Source: Alcanivorax sp. DP30 (GTDB lineage Bacteria > Pseudomonadota > Gammaproteobacteria > Pseudomonadales > Alcanivoracaceae). Taken from it: 64,000 nt of DNA. Both the position numbers and the translations under genes were made by a program. The notes under the pieces are model-generated. The model saw only the letters and a list, made by a program, of their open reading frames with translations, ran no database searches and was not told the DNA's origin. Shown in pieces: positions 31,555 to 44,290 of this stretch. The DNA lies in NCBI RefSeq assembly GCF_009882945.1, contig NZ_WTUY01000002.1, positions 436,927 through 500,926 of the forward strand, in the 5' to 3' direction. How positions within the stretch are numbered: position 1 is the first letter of the stretch; each line of letters opens with the position of its first letter.

Positions 31555-31974
31555 TCAGCCCTTGCCCTCATCCCCCACCACCGCATCAATCAAACCACAC
31601 ACCCGACCGTCATCCAGGTGGCAGTCGGGCTTGTCTTCCCATTCCGCCATGGCGGAGCGCATACGCTGACTCAGCGCCTGCAGTTCTCTGATTTGGGTCT
31701 CCACGTCGGCGAGACGGCATTCGATCAGGCTGCGCACCTGACCACAAGGCGTTTCACCTTCCTCCGACGCGGTGGCCAGCGACTGGATGTCCGACAGGGT
31801 AAAGCCCAACGAGCGGGCCTTGATGGCAAAGCGCAGCAGATGAAGATCTGCCAGATCGTAATGCCGATAGCCGTTCCCCGGATCACGCCGTGGCTTGAGC
31901 AGACCAATATCCGTGTAATGTCGCACCGTCTCGCTGGTGGTATCCGCCTGCCTGGCCATGTCAGAAACTCGCAT
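31555..31974 (-). CDS. MerR-family regulator with cysteine metal-site signature
   Basis: The 139-residue protein has the MerR helix-turn-helix (MRVSDMARQADTTSETVRHY) and a coiled-coil dimer helix. Cys77, Cys86, Cys118 and Cys126 (TPCGQVRSLIEC and DCHLDDGRVC) look like a metal-binding site in the ZntR/CadR style. AGGAG lies 9 nt before the ATG, inside the end of the upstream gene, 3 nt away. No metal transporter is adjacent, so its target is unclear. Confidence 0.8.
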   Translation of the reverse strand: MRVSDMARQADTTSETVRHYTDIGLLKPRRDPGNGYRHYDLADLHLLRFAIKARSLGFTLSDIQSLATASEEGETPCGQVRSLIECRLADVETQIRELQALSQRMRSAMAEWEDKPDCHLDDGRVCGLIDAVVGDEGKG

Positions 31975-31977
31975 GAT

Positions 31978-32985
31978 TCACTCTCCTGTGGTTTCACTCA
32001 TCCAGGGGCTCAATGCACCGGGTGTCACACGTTGCTGGTGTTGATAGTAACGTTTGATGGCCGCTGAGAGACGCTGTGGGCCTAGTTGCTCAGACAGCCG
32101 ATCCAGGAAAACGGTTCCGCGGGCATCCAGTGTCTCCACATTCTGAGGAATGGCAGCAAGGGAGCATTGCAGGGCGCTGTCAGCCAGAGACCGGCTATTC
32201 GGCTGCTCCTTCCAGGCATCCTGAAGGGGGACAACCACCCAGTCGCAATGCTGGTGATGACGGGCATATATGCCAGTGATCTGCCAGAACCAGGGATCAT
32301 CACCCAGCGCCGATCGCAAAGCCGACAGTTGTGAATCAACCGCAGATCTGTCGTTATCCGCAAACGCCTTCCGCAATTGCCACAGTGCTGGCTGTCCTGT
32401 ATCGATCTGTGCCTGCAATGCTGCCAACTCACAGGGCTTGTCACTACACTGGGCCAGCCACAAGGCCAGGGGAGCTGCCCTGCCCTGGGCAAGCTTAGCC
32501 AGATCGGGATTTCCCGGATCCTGGCTCAGGGTTGTCATAAACATTTCCCCGGAACGGGAGGCAAGCCAGGCCTGCTGCGATCGCAGAGAAACCAGATCGA
32601 GGCCTGTGGCGTAATCATAGAACTGATCGACGGTATATTGCGTTCCCGGGGTGCCGGCAACACGGATGAAAGTGACGCTGGCGATATTATCCGTCCCCTC
32701 ACCCTCCGCAAGATGCAGCCGCACACGTGCGGCATAACGTTCACTGTTCTGGTTGAATCCAGTGACGGCAAACGTCTCAAAGCGGACCTCAGCGAGCCAT
32801 TTCTCCTGTAAGGATTGGGGCAGGTTGACGATGGTCTGTCGTGACAGCAACGGGCGCAACGATCCTGTTTGCAGGTCTGCACGGATTGCCGCCAGGGTAT
32901 CGGTTTCACTCGCGTAAACAGACTGGCCGAATGGCCAGAACAACAAGGCCGTCAGACAAACCTGCAACAGGGACATCCATCGCAT
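31978..32985 (-). CDS. secreted protein of unknown function coupled to a MerR gene
   Basis: The 335-residue protein has a signal peptide (ALLFWPFGQSVYASE) and no other membrane segment. It reads as a mix of strands and then helices with periodic Ala/Leu, possibly TPR-like, with CSDKPCELAALQ and a later DALQCSLA. I do not recognise a family. It ends 3 nt before the MerR ATG, whose ribosome site lies in its last codons, so the two are co-expressed. The start is uncertain by 7 codons. Confidence 0.6.
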   Translation of the reverse strand: MRWMSLLQVCLTALLFWPFGQSVYASETDTLAAIRADLQTGSLRPLLSRQTIVNLPQSLQEKWLAEVRFETFAVTGFNQNSERYAARVRLHLAEGEGTDNIASVTFIRVAGTPGTQYTVDQFYDYATGLDLVSLRSQQAWLASRSGEMFMTTLSQDPGNPDLAKLAQGRAAPLALWLAQCSDKPCELAALQAQIDTGQPALWQLRKAFADNDRSAVDSQLSALRSALGDDPWFWQITGIYARHHQHCDWVVVPLQDAWKEQPNSRSLADSALQCSLAAIPQNVETLDARGTVFLDRLSEQLGPQRLSAAIKRYYQHQQRVTPGALSPWMSETTGE

Positions 32986-33074
32986 GCAGCAACCCACTCT
33001 CTGCAAAACAGTGAGCCTAGCACAGAGTCAGCGAGGAAGGCTTGATGGCCTTGGCGCCCTTGAAGAGCATCCGG

Positions 33075-34634
33075 CTAGCGCGCCGGGTAGCCGGTAATAT
33101 GACGAATCGAGCGATACAGCGGCGCCAATCTCGGGTAAAGACGCCGGTAAACCTGCTGGTAGAGCTTGTCGTAGGTGTCAGTAAATTCTTCACGAGGTAG
33201 AAAACGTGCCCCCGGCCGTGTCATGGCAGCAACTGCTGAGCCATGATCGGCATGCACCCCGGTGGCCACGGCAATGTTGATGGCAGCCCCAAGCCCGGAC
33301 GTTTCAGAGGTGTGGGGGCGCTCTGCCGGCAATCCAAAGATATCCGCGGTGATCTGCATGATGGCATCGCTCTGGGAGCCTCCACCGGACACCTTCAAGC
33401 GAGTGACTGGCACGCCATTGCGCTTCTCAAGCCGCTCCTTGCCCTCGCGCAAGGCATAGGCAATGCCTTCGATAATCGCGCGATACAGATGAGCACGGGT
33501 ATGAACATCGCCAAAACCGACGATGGCACCCTTGGCCTCAGGCCCGGGGATTCTCACGCCGGGATTCCAGAACGGCTGCAGAGTCAGCCCCATGGCACCG
33601 GGCGGGGTCTGTTGCAGAAATTCCTCGAACAGGGTTTCCGGAGACACCCCCAACTGTTCGGCCCGGTCCACTTCTTCGCGGGCAAATTCCCGCTTGAACC
33701 AGTTCACCATCCAGTAACCGCGCTGAACGATAATTTCGGAGTTGTATCTCCCCGGTACTGCAGCGCCATAGGCTGGAACAAAGGGAATCGGCTCAACATA
33801 TTTCTGGTTACAGGTGTTGAAGGTCGCAGTGGTGCCATAGCTGAGATTCCCCACTTCCGGCGAAAACGCACCGGCGCCCAGCACTTCACAGGCCTTGTCT
33901 GCGCCACTGGCAATCACCGGCAGACCTTCCGGAATCCCGGTGTGACGACTGGCCATTTCTGTGATGCGGCCCAGTGTTTCGCCGGGAGGCATCAACGACG
34001 GCAATTGCGTCGGATGAACCCTCAGCGCCTTCCACTTGAGATCATGGCTGGCAGCCCACTGGCCGCGCTTGTAGTCATAGGGGATGTAACCCACCTGGGA
34101 AGCCGTGCAGTCACGTATTTCACCGGTAAGGCGATAATTCAGGTAACCAGAGAGCAGCAGAAAATGCGCCGTTTTTGACCAGATTTCAGGCTCGTCCTCG
34201 GCCAGCCAGTTGCACTCTGCCTTGGCCTGAAACTGACGCAAGGTTTCGCCCTGCCCCAACAACTTTACCGGCGCCGCCAGCCAAAAGGGCAGTATCGGTG
34301 GTGACGCAGTGCGGCGCTGGTCCAGCCAGATGATCGCTGGCCTGAGAGGCTTCATACGAGAATCAAGACACACAACGGAGGCCCGCTGGGTCGTTAACGA
34401 CACTCCCGTTACCCGCCCCTTCAACTCCGGAAATTCCAGCCACAGCGCCTGACAGGCCTGACCAAGCTCTTCCCAGAAATACTCTGCATCCTGCTCTGCC
34501 CAGCCTGGCTGCGCAGACACATAGGGTTCGATATGACGCTGGGATTTGGCCACCAGTTCACCGGTTGCATCAAACACCATGGCTCGAGCACTCTGGGTAC
34601 CCTGGTCCAGCGCCAAAAACAGGGGGCTATCCAT
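33075..34634 (-). CDS. FGGY-family carbohydrate kinase (glycerol-kinase-like)
   Basis: The 519-residue ASKHA-fold kinase has the phosphate-1 loop LALDQGTQSARAMVFD, the second domain YGTTATFNTC, and the adenosine block KVSGGGSQSDAIMQITADIFG. It is clearly FGGY, but the glycerol-binding set of GlpK is not obvious, so the substrate is an inference. It overlaps the stop of the GlpD-like gene by one base in a TGATGG junction, with AAGGCGAG ahead of the ATG. It belongs to the operon with a GlpD-like oxidase and an AGPS-like protein. Confidence 0.85.
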   Translation of the reverse strand: MDSPLFLALDQGTQSARAMVFDATGELVAKSQRHIEPYVSAQPGWAEQDAEYFWEELGQACQALWLEFPELKGRVTGVSLTTQRASVVCLDSRMKPLRPAIIWLDQRRTASPPILPFWLAAPVKLLGQGETLRQFQAKAECNWLAEDEPEIWSKTAHFLLLSGYLNYRLTGEIRDCTASQVGYIPYDYKRGQWAASHDLKWKALRVHPTQLPSLMPPGETLGRITEMASRHTGIPEGLPVIASGADKACEVLGAGAFSPEVGNLSYGTTATFNTCNQKYVEPIPFVPAYGAAVPGRYNSEIIVQRGYWMVNWFKREFAREEVDRAEQLGVSPETLFEEFLQQTPPGAMGLTLQPFWNPGVRIPGPEAKGAIVGFGDVHTRAHLYRAIIEGIAYALREGKERLEKRNGVPVTRLKVSGGGSQSDAIMQITADIFGLPAERPHTSETSGLGAAINIAVATGVHADHGSAVAAMTRPGARFLPREEFTDTYDKLYQQVYRRLYPRLAPLYRSIRHITGYPAR

Positions 34635-36136
34635 CAGCTCGCCTTGCGGCTTTCAAGCACGCCAGTAGGGACACCATAAAATTGCTGGTGAATATTCAGG
34701 TAGCGGTCCAGCTCCTGTTGCCAGCGCACGTCATCCCAGCCAAGTGCACTCTGGATCTGCAGACGACGCTGTTCAATAACGGCTTGCCCGGCATGGGGTC
34801 GAGTCAGACCCAGGCGGGTACGGCGCAACATTAAATCATCCAGATGCTCCACAGCCTCATGCTCCAATAACCAGTCGAAGAATGCCGTGTCATCCTGGTT
34901 AGCATGCAGAAAGTTCTCCACCGCCGAAGGTGCAGACTCCAGCGGGCGGTACATGGGATCCCTGGTTTTTTGCCCCTGACGATGCGCGGCTTCATCAATC
35001 AGGCCCGTGGCCAGCAAGGCATCCAGCGCAATGAGACGGAACGTGGTGAGCTTGCCGCCGCTCACGGTCACCACCCCGTTATCGCCCCATACCGCATGAT
35101 CACGGCGCTCTTTTGACGGGTCCACACCCTTGCCTGAAGCAATGACCGGACGCACCCCCGCAATGGTGGCAAACACATCCTTACGGGAAATATCCCGGCC
35201 CGGAAACTGGCTATTGATAAGGGTCAGCAGGTAGTCCACCTCCTGACTGGATGCGCTGGCTTCGATGTCCATATCCTGCGGATGATCCAGGTCTGTGGTC
35301 CCCACGCAAGTGACCCCTTCCCAGGGAAAGACAAAGACCGGTCGGCCATCATCCGGATGCATGACCGTCAAACAGTCACTCACCGGCAGACGCTCGGGGT
35401 CCACAAAAAGGTGGCTGCCACGCAACGGCCTTACCCGGGCCTCACTGCCGGAAAATCGATCCGCCCAGGCCCCGGTGGCATTAATCACCTGAGCCGCTCG
35501 TACGGCGCCATCCTGGTCTGCTACCTGATCATTCAGGCTCACGGTGAAACCCTTTTCATCACGCTTCACCGAGGTTACCTGCAGGTAATTACACGCCACT
35601 CCACCATGCCGCGCCCCTTCCAGCAGGGTTCGCATGACCAGACGGCAGTCATCGGTGAGCGCGTCCGTGTAGCTCATGGCACCGGTCAGTCCATCGGCGT
35701 TCAGGGATGGGGCTCGCTCCTTCACCTGCTGGAGTGAGAGATAACGATGATCACGAATCCCGGCAAGAAAGTCGTACAACCACAGAATCGCCTTCATGGG
35801 CCAGCGGCCGGGAAACACTCCCTTGCGTAGCGGAAACAGATAGGTCGCCCGCTCTACCAGACCCGGCAGTTCCCTGAGTAGCCTCTCACGCTCCAGCAAT
35901 GAATGACGGGTGAGCTTCACATCGCCCTGGGCGATATAACGCAGGCCTCCGTGCACCATCTTTGAAGATCGGCTGGAAGTCCCCCAGGCATAATCACGTT
36001 GCTCTACCAGCAGTACCTTCAAGCCACGTCGAGCGGCTTCCAGCATCACACCGGCCCCGGTTATCCCGCCACCGATCACCAGCAAATCCCATTGCTGATC
36101 AGCCAGCTGAGTCATGTCCTGTCGTTTGCCAAGCAT
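34634..36136 (-). CDS. GlpD-family FAD-dependent glycerol-3-phosphate dehydrogenase
   Basis: The 500-residue flavoprotein has the dinucleotide fold WDLLVIGGGITGAGVMLEAARRG shifted to about residue 17. GTSSRSSKMVHGGLRYI and YPLFPL-type membrane-binding residues follow, and TFRLIALDALLA lies near the C-terminus. GlpD oxidises sn-glycerol 3-phosphate to DHAP with electrons going to quinone. I start at the ATG at 36136, with AGGGA upstream; the frame extends 48 more codons into unconserved sequence. It is the second gene of the AGPS-like operon, 29 nt after it. Confidence 0.88.
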   Translation of the reverse strand: MLGKRQDMTQLADQQWDLLVIGGGITGAGVMLEAARRGLKVLLVEQRDYAWGTSSRSSKMVHGGLRYIAQGDVKLTRHSLLERERLLRELPGLVERATYLFPLRKGVFPGRWPMKAILWLYDFLAGIRDHRYLSLQQVKERAPSLNADGLTGAMSYTDALTDDCRLVMRTLLEGARHGGVACNYLQVTSVKRDEKGFTVSLNDQVADQDGAVRAAQVINATGAWADRFSGSEARVRPLRGSHLFVDPERLPVSDCLTVMHPDDGRPVFVFPWEGVTCVGTTDLDHPQDMDIEASASSQEVDYLLTLINSQFPGRDISRKDVFATIAGVRPVIASGKGVDPSKERRDHAVWGDNGVVTVSGGKLTTFRLIALDALLATGLIDEAAHRQGQKTRDPMYRPLESAPSAVENFLHANQDDTAFFDWLLEHEAVEHLDDLMLRRTRLGLTRPHAGQAVIEQRRLQIQSALGWDDVRWQQELDRYLNIHQQFYGVPTGVLESRKAS

Positions 36137-36165
36137 GTTGTATCCCTGTCTGTTCCCTGCCCGTG

Positions 36166-37764
36166 TCAGTCCTGATCCTGGATCAGGCAGCCCGGATTGA
36201 GTTGCTGGCGCGGGTCCATGGCCTGCAGCAGATCCTTGATCATCTGCATACCCTGCTCGCCTTTCTCGTGGTGCAGCCACGGCGCATGATCACGGCCAAC
36301 CCCATGCTGATGACTGATGGTCCCGCCATGGGCGACGATAGCCTCACTGGCAGCGGCTTTCATGGCTTGCCAGCGCTTTAGCGTCTTCTCGTAACTGTCT
36401 GAACTGCGGAACACGTAAGTGGTATAGATACTGGAACCTTGCGGATAAAGGTGTGACAAGTGGGTAAAGACATGCACCTGCTCTCCGTCACCGGCATTGT
36501 CTCTCACCGCCTGTTCCATGGCGGTCATGGCCGGGGTGACCTGATTCCAGTTAACTGCTGTCTCGAACGTATCGACCACATAGCCATGTTCCCACAGGCC
36601 ATGGCGCAGATACGGAGAACGAAAACGGGATTCTTCCCATTTTCGGCCCAACAATTCGCCCACCATCACGCCGCCAGCTGCACGAATGCGGCGTTTACAC
36701 GTTGCCAGGATCTGCCGGCTCTGGGTTTTGTCTCCAGTCACACCAAAGGTGATCATGCATTTGCGATCACCACAGCTCCGCACGGAAAGATAGCGATGCA
36801 ACAGGGATACCAGTTTCTCATGACCGGCCAGCATCAAATGGGTGCGTGTCTCTTCCGCATTGGAAAGACGCAACATGGAAAGCGGCAGGCGGGACTGGGT
36901 CAGGCCGCGAACCAGTTCCACCGCCACATCCCAGTTCGGGGCAAATGCCACCTGAAAGGTTTCCACATCCGGCAGTGGCGTCACCCGCACTTTCACCTCG
37001 GTGATAACACCGAGGCGCCCCTCGGACCCCAGCACCATCTCACGGATATCCGGGCCTGCCGAAGAGGCCGGGATAGCGGGAATATCCAGGGTGCCGCGGG
37101 GCGTTTCCACACGGCCACCCGCAAACATCTGCTCGATGCGGCCATAACGCATGGATTGCTGGCCACTGGAGCGGCTGGCCACCCAGCCCCCCACAGTGGA
37201 CAACTCCCAGGACTGGGGGAAATGCCCCAGGGTATACCCCCTCTCCTTCAGCTGTTGCTCCAGCAGTGGACCGGGGGTTCCTGCACCAAAGGTGGCTATC
37301 TGACTCTCGCAATCAAGATGCAGCAAGCGGTTCATGCGCGCCAGGGAAAGCGTGAGAATAGGCTTGTCGCTGGCCTGGGGATTGATATGACCAGCAACCG
37401 ACGTACCTCCCCCATAGGGAATGACAATGATGTCTTGCCCGGCAGCCCAATCGAGGAGTTCCCTTACCTGAGCGGAATTTTCCGGCTCTGCCACCCCATC
37501 AGGGAAGTGATCAAATTGACCGGAGCGCATAGCCAGCCAATCCGGAAGACTTTGTCCGCGGGCGTGGCGCACCCGGGTTTCCGGGGCAGTATCAATAAGC
37601 GGATGGGGATTCAATCGGCTTTGCGGCACCGCCGCGATAACAGAGGCCAGTTCAGCGTCCTGCAGAGGAGAAGCATTCCCCAGCCGCGACTGAAGAAATC
37701 GCAACCCGGACGGTTTGAGAGGGTATTCGTTGGCGCTATCGCCCCAGCCATTCCAGCGTCGCAT
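36166..37764 (-). CDS. AGPS-like FAD oxidoreductase (alkyl-DHAP synthase family)
   Basis: The 532-residue VAO/PCMH-fold flavoprotein has the FAD loop IVIPYGGGTSVAGHINP and STVGGWVASRSSGQQSMRYG. The C-terminal motif SHQHGVGRDHAPWL corresponds to the His triad region of alkyldihydroxyacetonephosphate synthase. AGPS swaps the acyl chain of acyl-DHAP for a fatty alcohol, the first ether step. The bacterial branch could instead be a 2-hydroxyacid or related oxidase. AGGAG lies before the ATG. It leads an operon with a GlpD-like oxidase and an FGGY kinase. Confidence 0.75.
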   Translation of the reverse strand: MRRWNGWGDSANEYPLKPSGLRFLQSRLGNASPLQDAELASVIAAVPQSRLNPHPLIDTAPETRVRHARGQSLPDWLAMRSGQFDHFPDGVAEPENSAQVRELLDWAAGQDIIVIPYGGGTSVAGHINPQASDKPILTLSLARMNRLLHLDCESQIATFGAGTPGPLLEQQLKERGYTLGHFPQSWELSTVGGWVASRSSGQQSMRYGRIEQMFAGGRVETPRGTLDIPAIPASSAGPDIREMVLGSEGRLGVITEVKVRVTPLPDVETFQVAFAPNWDVAVELVRGLTQSRLPLSMLRLSNAEETRTHLMLAGHEKLVSLLHRYLSVRSCGDRKCMITFGVTGDKTQSRQILATCKRRIRAAGGVMVGELLGRKWEESRFRSPYLRHGLWEHGYVVDTFETAVNWNQVTPAMTAMEQAVRDNAGDGEQVHVFTHLSHLYPQGSSIYTTYVFRSSDSYEKTLKRWQAMKAAASEAIVAHGGTISHQHGVGRDHAPWLHHEKGEQGMQMIKDLLQAMDPRQQLNPGCLIQDQD

Positions 37765-37869
37765 GGAATTTTCTCCTGATTTTTTCGCATGTTAGCGCTC
37801 AATCAGGGCTATTTCACTGGCGTAGCGGGACAGCTAATGAACTTTTTCGGACACGACTTCAGGCCGCAT

Positions 37870-38694
37870 TCAATCCTTTAGAAGCCACTTTCGCCAACCC
37901 CTGCGCCGCGCCACAGAACGATCCTGATCAAGCTCTGCCAACATGCCGTGAATGGAAGTTGCCACTTCTTCGCGCAATTCCCAGCATGCCTCTTTATCTG
38001 CTGACCGCCCAGCCCAGCGTTCAGTGGAAATGGGTTCGCCAATCTGGAACCACAATGGCTCGGGTTTTGGCAGCAGCGTCGGCCCCACTCCACGGGCCAA
38101 GGGCATGAACAGATCTCCATCCCGAAGCAGCTTGTTCACCCTGCTGTTCTTCAAGATGCGCTTGCCAAACCGTGATTGTCTGAACGCATCACCATCGTAG
38201 AGAACGTCATAGGTATAATCACAGCCCGCAGAGGCAAACGGGATGATGTCATAACCATGGGCAATGGCCATTCTGGCGAATCCTGTTCGCTGCTTCCAGA
38301 CCAGCCGGTGCTCTTCACCCTTGCGCATGGCAACTTCCCTCCCGCCGCCAGGGAATACCAGCACATGCTGTCCACTTTCCATAAGTTCCTGGCAATTTTC
38401 CGGAGTACCATCCACCGCGCCAAAACGCTGCAGCATGCTACCCCAACCCGGAATCACGAAATGAAAATGATCACCCAGAGCCCTCGGATACACCCCTGTT
38501 TCCCGGTACAACTCGGCCACAAACAGCGGCGAGTCAATCAAACCGTACAGGCCATGATTCCCAACGAACAAGGCCGGGCGTTGCGGGTCGACATTTTCAA
38601 CCCCACGCAGTCTGGGCGCAAAATACCAGCGTTGCATACGCAAGCGTTTGTCCAGTGACTGGAGTGAGGGCGGTGTAAACGTCGAACTTTTCAC
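37870..38694 (-). CDS. LPLAT-family acyltransferase (MGAT/DGAT-like)
   Basis: The 274-residue protein lacks the classic NHX4D but has FVGNHGLYGLIDSP, the H-(X)4-D variant seen in MGAT/DGAT2-like LPLATs. It then has LVFPGGGREVAMRKGEEHRLVWK, the glycerol-phosphate-binding block. Such enzymes acylate glycerolipids. The GTG start has AAAGGACAGG upstream. It is 105 nt upstream of the AGPS-like gene on the same strand and may be part of the same unit. Confidence 0.78.
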   Translation of the reverse strand: MKSSTFTPPSLQSLDKRLRMQRWYFAPRLRGVENVDPQRPALFVGNHGLYGLIDSPLFVAELYRETGVYPRALGDHFHFVIPGWGSMLQRFGAVDGTPENCQELMESGQHVLVFPGGGREVAMRKGEEHRLVWKQRTGFARMAIAHGYDIIPFASAGCDYTYDVLYDGDAFRQSRFGKRILKNSRVNKLLRDGDLFMPLARGVGPTLLPKPEPLWFQIGEPISTERWAGRSADKEACWELREEVATSIHGMLAELDQDRSVARRRGWRKWLLKD

Positions 38695-42874: not shown

Positions 42875-43978
42875 CTATTCATAGAGGGGGCGTGACAACT
42901 CTGCCCAGTCGACCTCACCGTCATCCACCAGGTTCTCGAACTGCAATAACCCGAGGGCTTCAAAGCGCGGTCTGACCGAATCGGTGAGCAACCCGATGCG
43001 CTTCAGGTTCGGCATGATGCGGGTAAACAGCAGATTACGGAACTGCCCCATGATGGCAGAGGACAGCACCTGTTCCCGGGCGACATCCACATCCCACCCG
43101 AAATGTTCAAACACTTCAGTGCTGATCAGCCGCTCACGCATGACCACACAGGCTTCATAGGCAAAGTGGGCGCGCTCCTCCAGTTCTTCTTGAGAAAGAG
43201 ACTTAACAAAGTCCTCCAAGTAATTGACACCAAAGGTAACGTGTCGGGCTTCGTCACGAATTACCAGGTGCACAAGCTGCTTCAGCAAGGGGTCCTTGGC
43301 GGTCATTTTCAGAGTATTGAAGGCAGCCAGTGCCAGCCCCTCGATGATGATCTGCATGCCGATAAACTTCAGGTCCCAGCGTGGATCCGAGAGAATCTTG
43401 TCGAGCAGAGACTTGAGGTTGGGGTTGACTGGATAAAGGATGCCGACCTTTTCCTGCAGGTAGCGGGTAAACGCCTCTACATGCCTGGCTTCATCAAAGG
43501 TCTGGCTGGCGGCATACAATTTTGCATCATAGGACGGGGCACAGCTGGCCAGCTGCGAGGCCACCAGCAAGGCGCCCTGCTCGCCATGCATGAACTGGGC
43601 AAGCATCCACGCCAGGTTATGCCATCCAAAACGTAACTTCTCGTCGTCACTGAGTGCCTCAAAGGGTGCCCAGCCGTTGAAGGGATTAAAGGATTCATCC
43701 ATGGGAATCTGGCTGCGTGGAAAGTCCTGGCTCCAGTCCAGATCCATATCTGCATTCCAGTTCAACTCTTTACCCAATTGGTAAAGCTTGCGAATCCGCC
43801 CATCTGCAGACGCATAATCCCAGTTGTAGTGTCCGGTCAGTGGTGTCTGAAAAATCTCCACCACATCCTCCACATGTTGGGTAGAAAGTTTGTCCTCGAT
43901 ATCCTCGGCGCCAGGTCCATCCCAGTTCTCATAAATGCTGATGTGGGTGGGCGGGGTGTTGACTCTGGTTATTTTCAT
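42875..43978 (-). CDS. ferritin-like diiron protein, unknown substrate
   Basis: The 367-residue protein starts MKITRVNTPPTHISIYENWDG. It carries two EARH motifs (TFDEARHVEAF and IRDEARHVTFG) and HGEQGALLVA between them. The arrangement E...EARH...E...EARH is that of carboxylate-bridged diiron oxidases and desaturases. It lacks a membrane anchor. AAAGGTG lies before the ATG. I do not recognise a precise family; homologues are known as ferritin-like proteins in Pseudomonas and Marinobacter. It lies next to lipid genes. Confidence 0.7.
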   Translation of the reverse strand: MKITRVNTPPTHISIYENWDGPGAEDIEDKLSTQHVEDVVEIFQTPLTGHYNWDYASADGRIRKLYQLGKELNWNADMDLDWSQDFPRSQIPMDESFNPFNGWAPFEALSDDEKLRFGWHNLAWMLAQFMHGEQGALLVASQLASCAPSYDAKLYAASQTFDEARHVEAFTRYLQEKVGILYPVNPNLKSLLDKILSDPRWDLKFIGMQIIIEGLALAAFNTLKMTAKDPLLKQLVHLVIRDEARHVTFGVNYLEDFVKSLSQEELEERAHFAYEACVVMRERLISTEVFEHFGWDVDVAREQVLSSAIMGQFRNLLFTRIMPNLKRIGLLTDSVRPRFEALGLLQFENLVDDGEVDWAELSRPLYE

Positions 43979-44132
43979 TCCGGCACCTTTGGCATTGTTA
44001 TGGATATCACTCCACGCTAACGCTGACCGGGATCTGAGGGAATGGGTTTGGATGACATTTGAACCGGCTGTTGGCGTGAAATCACAACCCACCATGAAAG
44101 CCATGTCGTTAGCTGCATACGGGCCGGAATGG

Positions 44133-44205
44133 TGCGGGAGCGTACTTGCACGCCAACCAGGGGGCTCCCTGGTCAAGGTCCTCCCCGTGCAAGCACACTC
44201 CCACA
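44133..44205. repeat. inverted pair of REP-like elements
   Basis: Two REP copies face each other (44133-44155 plus and 44186-44205 minus), with a 30-nt spacer holding GGGGCTCCCTGG. They are the same family as at 10695 and 10845 but slightly diverged. They lie in the 312-nt gap between the ferritin-like gene and the thioesterases on the minus strand. No gene is evident in that gap. Confidence 0.8.
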
Positions 44206-44290
44206 GCGCGTGCATGAATGTCCCCTGTAAATCACTAACGGCGACTTCAAAGCCGAGACAAACCGGAAAAGCCCGGCTCAGGCACAAGCT

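Follow-up and report, generated by a model that had tools for sequence, protein, structure and literature searches.

The closest described relative of the locus analysed here is the PA3026-PA3024 operon of Pseudomonas aeruginosa, which encodes an AGPS-family flavoenzyme, a GlpD-like oxidoreductase and an FGGY kinase and is controlled by the activator GliR (PA3027). Besides this operon GliR drives the lipid kinase PA3023 and the phospholipase C PA3464. A PA3026-PA3024 deletion strain showed no phenotype, whether on glycerol or in the BIOLOG plates that were tried, and alkylglycerols are not reported among the substrates (PMC8151288). A bacterial AGPS homolog is also part of the ether-lipid operon MXAN_1676-1674 of Myxococcus (PMC9131029). 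The mycobacterial genes Rv2249c-Rv2250c-Rv2251-Rv2252 are expressed together in BCG (PMC4564863), and Rv2252 has been assigned by experiment as a diacylglycerol kinase (PMC3229680). In E. coli an AGPS-like flavoprotein gene, ygcU, lies near the FGGY kinase gene ygcE.

We have analysed a stretch of 64,000 nucleotides from Alcanivorax sp. DP30 (the window) that carries the same three families as PA3026-PA3024. The trio locus itself is not new, since the gene set is already known from Pseudomonas, and PA3026-PA3024 is the similar Pseudomonas trio that a first-pass annotation of this DNA had mentioned. Its gene order is the same, AGPS-GlpD-FGGY on one strand, and close relatives are found in many Pseudomonas species. 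Unlike the P. aeruginosa operon, the trio of the window has no adjacent divergent GliR-type AraC gene; instead an LPLAT gene precedes it and a MerR gene lies downstream. A GliR-type AraC gene lies near 48 of 96 orthologous trio loci. The Myxococcus operon, compared here by its published description, differs in content and encodes a fused FAR/GNPAT and an epimerase-type protein where the window has the GlpD-like gene and the kinase.

Gene order, loss and neighbours of the trio

The four genes named in the first-pass annotation, together with their spacing, are borne out at 33075-38694 on the minus strand (Table 1). The mechanical reading frame of the GlpD-like gene is open to 36280, and its likely start is the ATG at 36136, 29 nt past the AGPS stop; its end overlaps the kinase start by a single base at 34634. 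The LPLAT gene lies 105 nt upstream of the AGPS-like gene and is possibly co-transcribed with the trio. The protein encoded behind the kinase shows 38-47% identity within the genus, has no Pfam match, and no counterpart was matched beside the trio elsewhere.

Table 1. Same-strand genes in and around the trio of the window
Feature	Position	Strand	Remarks
MerR-family regulator	31555-31974	minus	final gene of the same-strand run
Fast-evolving protein behind the kinase	31978-33006	minus	TTG start; 68 nt from the kinase
FGGY kinase	33075-34634	minus	519 aa; Pfam FGGY_N/C; proposed substituted-glycerol kinase
GlpD-like FAD oxidoreductase	34634-36136	minus	~500 aa; Pfam DAO and weak DAO_C
AGPS-family flavoenzyme	36166-37764	minus	532 aa; Pfam FAD_binding_4/FAD-oxidase_C; trio core
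LPLAT / DAGAT-like acyltransferase	37870-38694	minus	Pfam Acyltransferase and DAGAT; accessory

The gene set is present in Pseudomonas, Marinobacter, Endozoicomonas, SAR86 and others. Among the ortholog loci with enough flanking sequence, 91 of 93 keep the three genes in the same order and on the same strand, at AGPS identities down to 54%, and the clustering is therefore not due to chance. In four members of the host family (G017, G026, G033 and G035) the locus persists with its central GlpD-like gene, and the AGPS and FGGY genes on either side of it are both gone. This joint disappearance around a retained gene is new here. Because the genera g2 and g4 hold trio carriers too, AGPS and FGGY were lost together at least twice independently, and as the loss of both neighbours leaves the GlpD-like gene in place, the three genes are not a mere deletion unit. 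At L067 and L077 the AGPS gene has moved away, and GlpD-FGGY is still present in the genome. The functional tie of the AGPS gene with the GlpD-like and FGGY genes that had been proposed from the letters alone is upheld.

The acyltransferase behaves differently from the trio in the co-occurrence check suggested by the same annotation, as it comes and goes independently of AGPS. Its position beside the trio is confined to some members of the host family, several trio carriers gave no LPLAT match, and G026 retains it in the absence of AGPS and FGGY; this patchy distribution rules it out as a core member. No transporter or lipase was constant beside the trio among the loci compared. Two SDR-family genes (SDR and extended-SDR) lie upstream of the trio in SAR86/SAR92-type loci. 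Other neighbours we take as unrelated lineage synteny, namely CheW-type and MOSC proteins in Pseudomonas (c23, c19), type II secretion and transglutaminase-like proteins in Marinobacter (c31/c103) and a nicotinate phosphoribosyltransferase in Pseudovibrio.

Active sites of the three proteins

The best PDB matches of the AGPS-like protein are true AGPS enzymes (254 and 215 bits), against 75 bits for glycolate oxidase/D-LDH, and the first 37 PDB matches of its AlphaFold model are AGPS structures, followed by D-lactate dehydrogenases. With the eukaryotic enzymes (guinea pig 4bby, Dictyostelium 2uuu) it has in common the fold, the FAD domain, the N-terminal WNGWG motif and the equivalents of R419, R515, Y578, H615 and H617, and H300 and T309 are kept as well. 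However, identity is ~27%, the protein belongs to a separate bacterial clade, and it carries Q for H616 and D303, N for D422 and S for C576. Position 616 is Q in most trio members. At position 303 every bacterial homolog in the comparison has Q, so that D303 may be non-diagnostic for AGPS. The GlcD-like protein of the same genome has SAEHGVG at the site of SHHHGVG in AGPS. The score gap, the fold and the catalytic residues support the membership in the AGPS family that had been assigned before. An ordinary 2-hydroxyacid oxidase, which the first-pass annotation had named as the refuting case, is disfavoured by the active-site and fold comparison, and with the score gap and the active-site motif we reject it. 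That the protein retains most AGPS catalytic residues within a predicted AGPS-type fold is new here.

The kinase was scored at the GlpK glycerol-site residues R83, E84, W103, Y135, D245, Q246 and F270. The window protein keeps R83, W103 and D245, and has A, F, K and T at E84, Y135, Q246 and F270. These four of the seven glycerol-holding residues are replaced in all 87 of 87 trio kinases (Q246 by K in 86 and by N in one), and the catalytic D245 is retained with R83 and W103. The score against NCBIfam TIGR01311 is 141 bits, below the cut-off of 590, and a separate canonical GlpK is encoded elsewhere in the host genome. The pocket residues rule out a canonical glycerol kinase. This altered glycerol pocket across the trio kinases, beside a separate host GlpK, is new here. 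Thus, the previously suggested route from glycerol over G3P, DHAP and acyl-DHAP to alkyl-DHAP is unsupported, since its first enzyme lacks four GlpK residues and a real GlpK is present.

The GlpD-like protein keeps the G3P-site residues R54, H233, T270, R317, R332 and K354 (E. coli GlpD numbering) in 86 of 86 trio members. It reaches 269 bits against the NCBIfam GlpD equivalog, below the cut-off of 360, and is the sole GlpD homolog of the host. As it also survives alone in AGPS-less relatives, it probably handles plain G3P as well.

Direction of the proposed pathway and competing explanations

We consider it quite possible, although we hold this tentatively, that the trio is a three-step glycerol-ether pathway, most likely for 1-O-alkylglycerols released from ether lipids. 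The FGGY kinase would transfer phosphate to the primary hydroxyl left free in a glycerol substituted at position 1. The GlpD-like flavoprotein, judging from its conserved G3P-site residues, would oxidise C2 to yield 1-O-alkyl-dihydroxyacetone phosphate and pass the electrons to the respiratory chain. In the forward direction AGPS is known to produce alkyl-DHAP. Running in reverse, the AGPS-family enzyme would take off the alkyl group as fatty alcohol and leave DHAP. Where a fatty acid replaces the alkyl group, acyl-DHAP would remain instead. Fatty alcohol and DHAP would then feed ordinary catabolism.

We infer substrate, step order and direction, and the comparative evidence favours ether-lipid breakdown over synthesis. 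It comprises the AGPS residues and fold, the altered kinase pocket beside a separate GlpK, the intact phosphate/glycerol site of the GlpD-like protein, the co-loss of AGPS and FGGY together with the GlpD-FGGY pairs still held where AGPS moved away, and the succession of a kinase and an FAD oxidase, which is an oxidative, catabolic order. The joint control by GliR of a lipid kinase and a phospholipase C fits as well. A further argument comes from actinobacteria, where the kinase is replaced by a diacylglycerol kinase. A GlpD-TetR-AGPS-diacylglycerol kinase cluster is found in Streptomyces (L159) and Tsukamurella (L161), and like Rv2249c-Rv2252 of M. tuberculosis it combines AGPS-family, GlpD-like and kinase genes, but with a kinase from the YegS/DAGK lipid-kinase family, a divergent GlpD gene and an intervening TetR gene. 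The occurrence of these AGPS/GlpD genes beside a lipid kinase in actinobacteria is new here. Against breakdown count the lack of a phenotype of the PA3026-PA3024 deletion, the Q at H616 in most trio members, the SDR-family genes of SAR86/SAR92-type loci, which could encode alkyl-DHAP reductases for synthesis, the GlpD-like gene that survives alone and is the only GlpD homolog of the host, and the missing constant transporter or lipase. Our literature searches yielded nothing decisive on bacterial growth on batyl or chimyl alcohol or on a reverse AGPS reaction. Alkylglycerol catabolism, which the first-pass annotation had listed as an alternative, fits better than its synthetic route, with the direction inferred.

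The main rival is ether-lipid synthesis by the AGPS-family enzyme, which we regard as unlikely. Acyl-DHAP could come from the acyltransferase, or from monoacylglycerol via the kinase and the GlpD-like oxidase. Family membership with most catalytic residues present would agree with this, as would the LPLAT gene adjoining the AGPS-like gene in the window, and the SDR genes of SAR86/SAR92-type loci recall the NAD-dependent epimerase gene beside MXAN_1676 (PMC9131029). However, LPLAT is uncoupled from the trio, no reductase or fatty acyl reductase is constant beside it, and an FAD-linked GlpD opposes the reductive step that synthesis requires. Within the window no fatty-alcohol-forming (FAR) or acyl/alkyl-DHAP-reducing gene is attached to the trio, which together with the independence of LPLAT leaves the four-gene synthetic route unsupported. 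The window does not show the eukaryote-type synthesis set, in which linked FAR, GNPAT and acyl/alkyl-DHAP reductase genes accompany AGPS. Ether lipids are also not known from P. aeruginosa. The AGPS homologs at L046, L050 and L051, considered as synthesis-type operons, are unsupported by their neighbours (ClpB, adenylosuccinate synthetase, TonB receptor/benzoate transporter).

The same logic of kinase, oxidase and cleavage could serve the catabolism of other glycerol ethers or polyols, such as aryl-glycerol ethers, glycosyl-glycerols or sugar-like compounds, and this we find distinctly unlikely. Distant AGPS/FGGY pairs stand in sugar-like contexts, as GlpD-AGPS-FGGY on a Novosphingobium plasmid and at L052, as AGPS with a xylulokinase and an ABC transporter in Roseibium and as ygcU/ygcE in E. 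coli, and dioxane catabolic clusters contain AGPS-family genes. The E. coli ygcU/ygcE pair shares R83 and K246 of the kinase pocket, but comes with ETF-like genes and transporters and has no GlpD-like gene. These AGPS proteins, YgcU included, form separate branches in which several residues conserved in the trio are missing, among them E306 and T530 in the sugar-context group. Moreover, no solute transporter is linked to the trio, and the replacement by a lipid kinase indicates a lipid substrate. Backup glycerol/G3P metabolism by a second GlpK/GlpD pair beside an unrelated flavoprotein is very improbable, for although the GlpD-like protein is the only GlpD homolog of the host and is kept alone in relatives, the kinase pocket is altered throughout, a canonical GlpK exists separately, and AGPS and FGGY are lost together while GlpD stays.

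Possible implications for alkylglycerol breakdown

A review describes alkylglycerol monooxygenase (AGMO) as the only known alkylglycerol-degrading enzyme (PMC7911779). It is possible, if somewhat doubtful, that reverse AGPS action, supplied by a kinase dedicated to alkylglycerols and by an oxidase of the GlpD type, amounts to an oxygenase-independent ether cleavage, with a lipid-kinase equivalent in actinobacteria including M. tuberculosis. If this is true, kinase, oxidase and AGPS would form a second route of alkylglycerol breakdown, chemically different from AGMO, and the gene set of Pseudomonas, Marinobacter, Endozoicomonas, SAR86 and others would gain a function. It would likewise suggest a role for the M. 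tuberculosis flavoprotein Rv2251, encoded beside the diacylglycerol kinase Rv2252.

Gene content and distribution of the trio

Domain searches confirm the four gene identities proposed in the first-pass annotation (LPLAT, AGPS-like, GlpD-like and FGGY kinase), and ORF coordinates agree with its spacing: 105 nt between LPLAT and AGPS, 29 nt between AGPS and GlpD and a 1-base overlap of GlpD and FGGY. The 342-aa protein behind the kinase has no Pfam or family match and was not seen beside the trio in other genera. The AurF-like di-iron protein, which shows about 74-96% identity within the host family, often neighbours the trio locus and weakly matches aldehyde-deformylating oxygenase.

Features of the trio region in the window and of AGPS-family loci (L) in other genomes, the latter in their own coordinates
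Feature	Position	Strand	Basis or remark
LPLAT	37870-38694	-	ORF and domain search
AGPS-like	36166-37764	-	ORF and domain search
GlpD-like	34634-36136 (likely ATG; ORF open to 36280)	-	ORF and domain search
FGGY kinase	33075-34634	-	ORF and domain search
342-aa protein, fast-evolving, TTG start	31978-33006	-	behind kinase, same strand
MerR regulator		-	same-strand run, after 342-aa protein
AurF-like di-iron protein	42875-44287
Actinobacterial GlpD-like/TetR/AGPS-like/YegS-type lipid kinase cluster	L161:3779-8417; L159:5723-10525; L160		YegS-type kinase not detected in L160
AGPS-family flavoenzyme, Xanthobacter dioxanivorans	L155:9842-11509		dioxane-degrader plasmid
AGPS-family flavoenzyme, Mycobacterium dioxanotrophicus	L154:10052-11395		dioxane-degrader plasmid

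Of 57 relatives, 38 have an AGPS homolog at E <= 1e-40. Samples of 274 genomes from the class and 398 from the phylum yielded 10 genomes with homologs (E <= 1e-60, distant ones among them) and 16 (E <= 1e-100), respectively. The set is thus widespread but patchy, and its carriers include Pseudomonas, Marinobacter, Oleiphilus, Vreelandella, Moritella, Endozoicomonas, Pseudovibrio, SAR86, SAR92, Janthinobacterium and Undibacterium. The neighbourhood comparison confirms that the trio co-occurs: order (AGPS-GlpD-FGGY) and strand are kept in 91 of the 93 ortholog loci with room for the full trio, and in both exceptions GlpD-FGGY sits at another place in the genome. An AraC gene resembling GliR, the activator of the Pseudomonas aeruginosa operon, lies near the trio in 48/96 loci, a YegS lipid kinase in 8/96 (Pseudomonas) and LPLAT in 8/96.

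Several variants were seen. In one relative a rubber-oxygenase/mpaB-domain gene is inserted between LPLAT and AGPS (L037:11534-12868). In SAR86 (L117:6169-9973) a DUF3604 protein, a mycolate-reductase-like SDR and an extended SDR lead directly into the trio, and the same two SDR genes recur upstream in SAR92/Porticoccaceae-type loci and L054. A distant version ordered GlpD-AGPS-FGGY occurs in L052 and on a Novosphingobium plasmid (L158:6279-10725), where a sugar-phosphate isomerase and MFS transporters are its neighbours. One MAG labelled Actinomycetota (L060) has a gammaproteobacterial-type trio (AGPS identity 61%) and is probably misbinned or mislabelled.

Active sites and co-loss

The AGPS family assignment of the first reading holds: the top PDB sequence relatives are Dictyostelium and mammalian AGPS (254 and 215 bits) versus 75 bits for glycolate oxidase, the next solved relative, and the first 37 fold matches of the AlphaFold model (mean pLDDT 82) are all AGPS structures (TM 0.74-0.87), followed by D-lactate dehydrogenases. 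The N-terminal RRWNGWGD motif also matches AGPS. Aligned in guinea pig numbering, the window protein retains H300, S304, E306, S308, T309, R419, Y513, R515, Y571, G574, Y578, S614, H615 and H617, including R419 and Y578, the positions mutated in the solved structures 4bc7 and 4bca; D303->Q, D422->N, C576->S, S527->T and H616->Q are changed. The SHHHGVG of AGPS reads SAEHGVG in the host's own GlcD-like protein. In the tree the trio proteins form one clade (support 0.93). It is nested in a larger bacterial clade with full support, to which eukaryotic AGPS is sister and ygcU-like proteins do not belong.

Among the residues that contact glycerol in the E. coli GlpK structures (R83, E84, W103, Y135, D245, Q246 and F270), R83, W103 and D245 are present in 87/87 aligned trio kinases. 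E84 is replaced by G/A/Y/S, Y135 by F/L/V/M, Q246 by K in 86/87 (N in one) and F270 by T in all 87; all seven are intact in the host's separate GlpK. The trio kinase has kept its predicted chemistry, with a remade glycerol pocket. The GlpD-like proteins keep the substrate-site residues R54, H233, T270, R317, R332 and K354 in 86/86 trio members, which fits a G3P-type substrate.

In four AGPS-less family members (G017, G026, G033 and G035) the neighbourhood is still recognisable by the OmpA lipoprotein and AurF genes (4/4) plus MFS, Na+/H+ antiporter, MerR or Bcr genes. All four retain the GlpD-like gene (~55% identity) and lack both AGPS before it and FGGY after it; no FGGY ortholog is left in these genomes, only GlpK-like kinases (~25% identity). 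Since the two genera concerned also include genomes with the trio, at least two losses were independent, and because both flanks went while the middle gene stayed, AGPS and FGGY appear to depend on each other. The GlpD-like protein probably has a further use in plain G3P oxidation, as the host genome holds no second GlpD homolog. LPLAT is retained in G026 despite the absence of AGPS and has no match in the trio carriers G028, G029, G050 and G054.

Proposed pathway and its direction

The direction of the pathway and its substrate we infer. The FGGY kinase would convert alkylglycerol to alkyl-glycerol-3-phosphate, the GlpD-like enzyme would oxidize this to alkyl-DHAP, and the AGPS-family enzyme would release fatty alcohol and DHAP. 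In this order every enzyme would take up the product of the one before it, and the final intermediate, alkyl-DHAP, is the known ligand of AGPS. A kinase followed by an FAD oxidase is an arrangement typical of catabolism, and only the cleavage of the ether is out of reach of lipases.

Synthesis of ether lipids would instead require fatty alcohol, acyl-DHAP and a reductase. The two SDR-family genes upstream of the trio in SAR86/SAR92-type loci may speak for it, but none of these functions is constantly linked to the trio. The Myxococcus AGPS has a minor role in ether-lipid synthesis, and its linked partners are a FAR/GNPAT fusion and an epimerase-type gene (PMC9131029), whereas the window has GlpD-like and FGGY genes instead.

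The Pseudomonas trio mentioned in the first-pass annotation corresponds to the PA3026-PA3024 operon, for which a route from glycerol to alkylglycerone phosphate was already sketched by the authors. GliR overproduction raised PA3026-PA3024 and PA3023 (YegS) 47- to 173-fold and phospholipase C PA3464 130-fold, and deleting PA3026-PA3024 caused no phenotype on any of the media or BIOLOG plates used (PMC8151288). The GliR regulon adds a phospholipase C and a lipid kinase to the breakdown picture.

Related clusters and other ethers

The AGPS-family genes of Streptomyces and Tsukamurella (37-38% identical to that of the window) adjoin a divergent TetR-GlpD pair, with a YegS/diacylglycerol kinase gene behind them; GlpD-TetR-AGPS is also present in Nonomuraea. 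By gene order this cluster matches M. tuberculosis Rv2249c (glpD1), Rv2250c (regulator), Rv2251 (flavoprotein) and Rv2252 (diacylglycerol kinase), an order that suggests that Rv2251 is AGPS-like. One BCG data set lists the four genes as a group, with changes of like size (2.1 to 2.3; PMC4564863); Rv2252 is cited as a diacylglycerol kinase by experiment (PMC3229680). Because actinobacteria put such an enzyme in the kinase position, the comparison points to a glycerolipid as the substrate of the kinase step.

On a Rhodococcus plasmid (L157:8785-11590) an AGPS-family gene adjoins a gene of the sterol-desaturase family, the superfamily that also includes AGMO.

AGPS-family genes also lie on plasmids of degraders of dioxane, a cyclic ether, next to aldehyde dehydrogenases and glycolate/glyoxylate genes. 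The Xanthobacter order (glcF-glcE-glcD-GST-AGPS-aldehyde dehydrogenase) matches, in its sequence of genes, the dioxane-induced GE05986-GE05991 cluster, although the AGPS-like gene is absent from that paper's listing (PMC8508750). These enzymes are possible ether-cleaving steps. Should the Xanthobacter enzyme cleave the linear ether intermediate, the ability to split ethers would extend to the bacterial AGPS branch in general.
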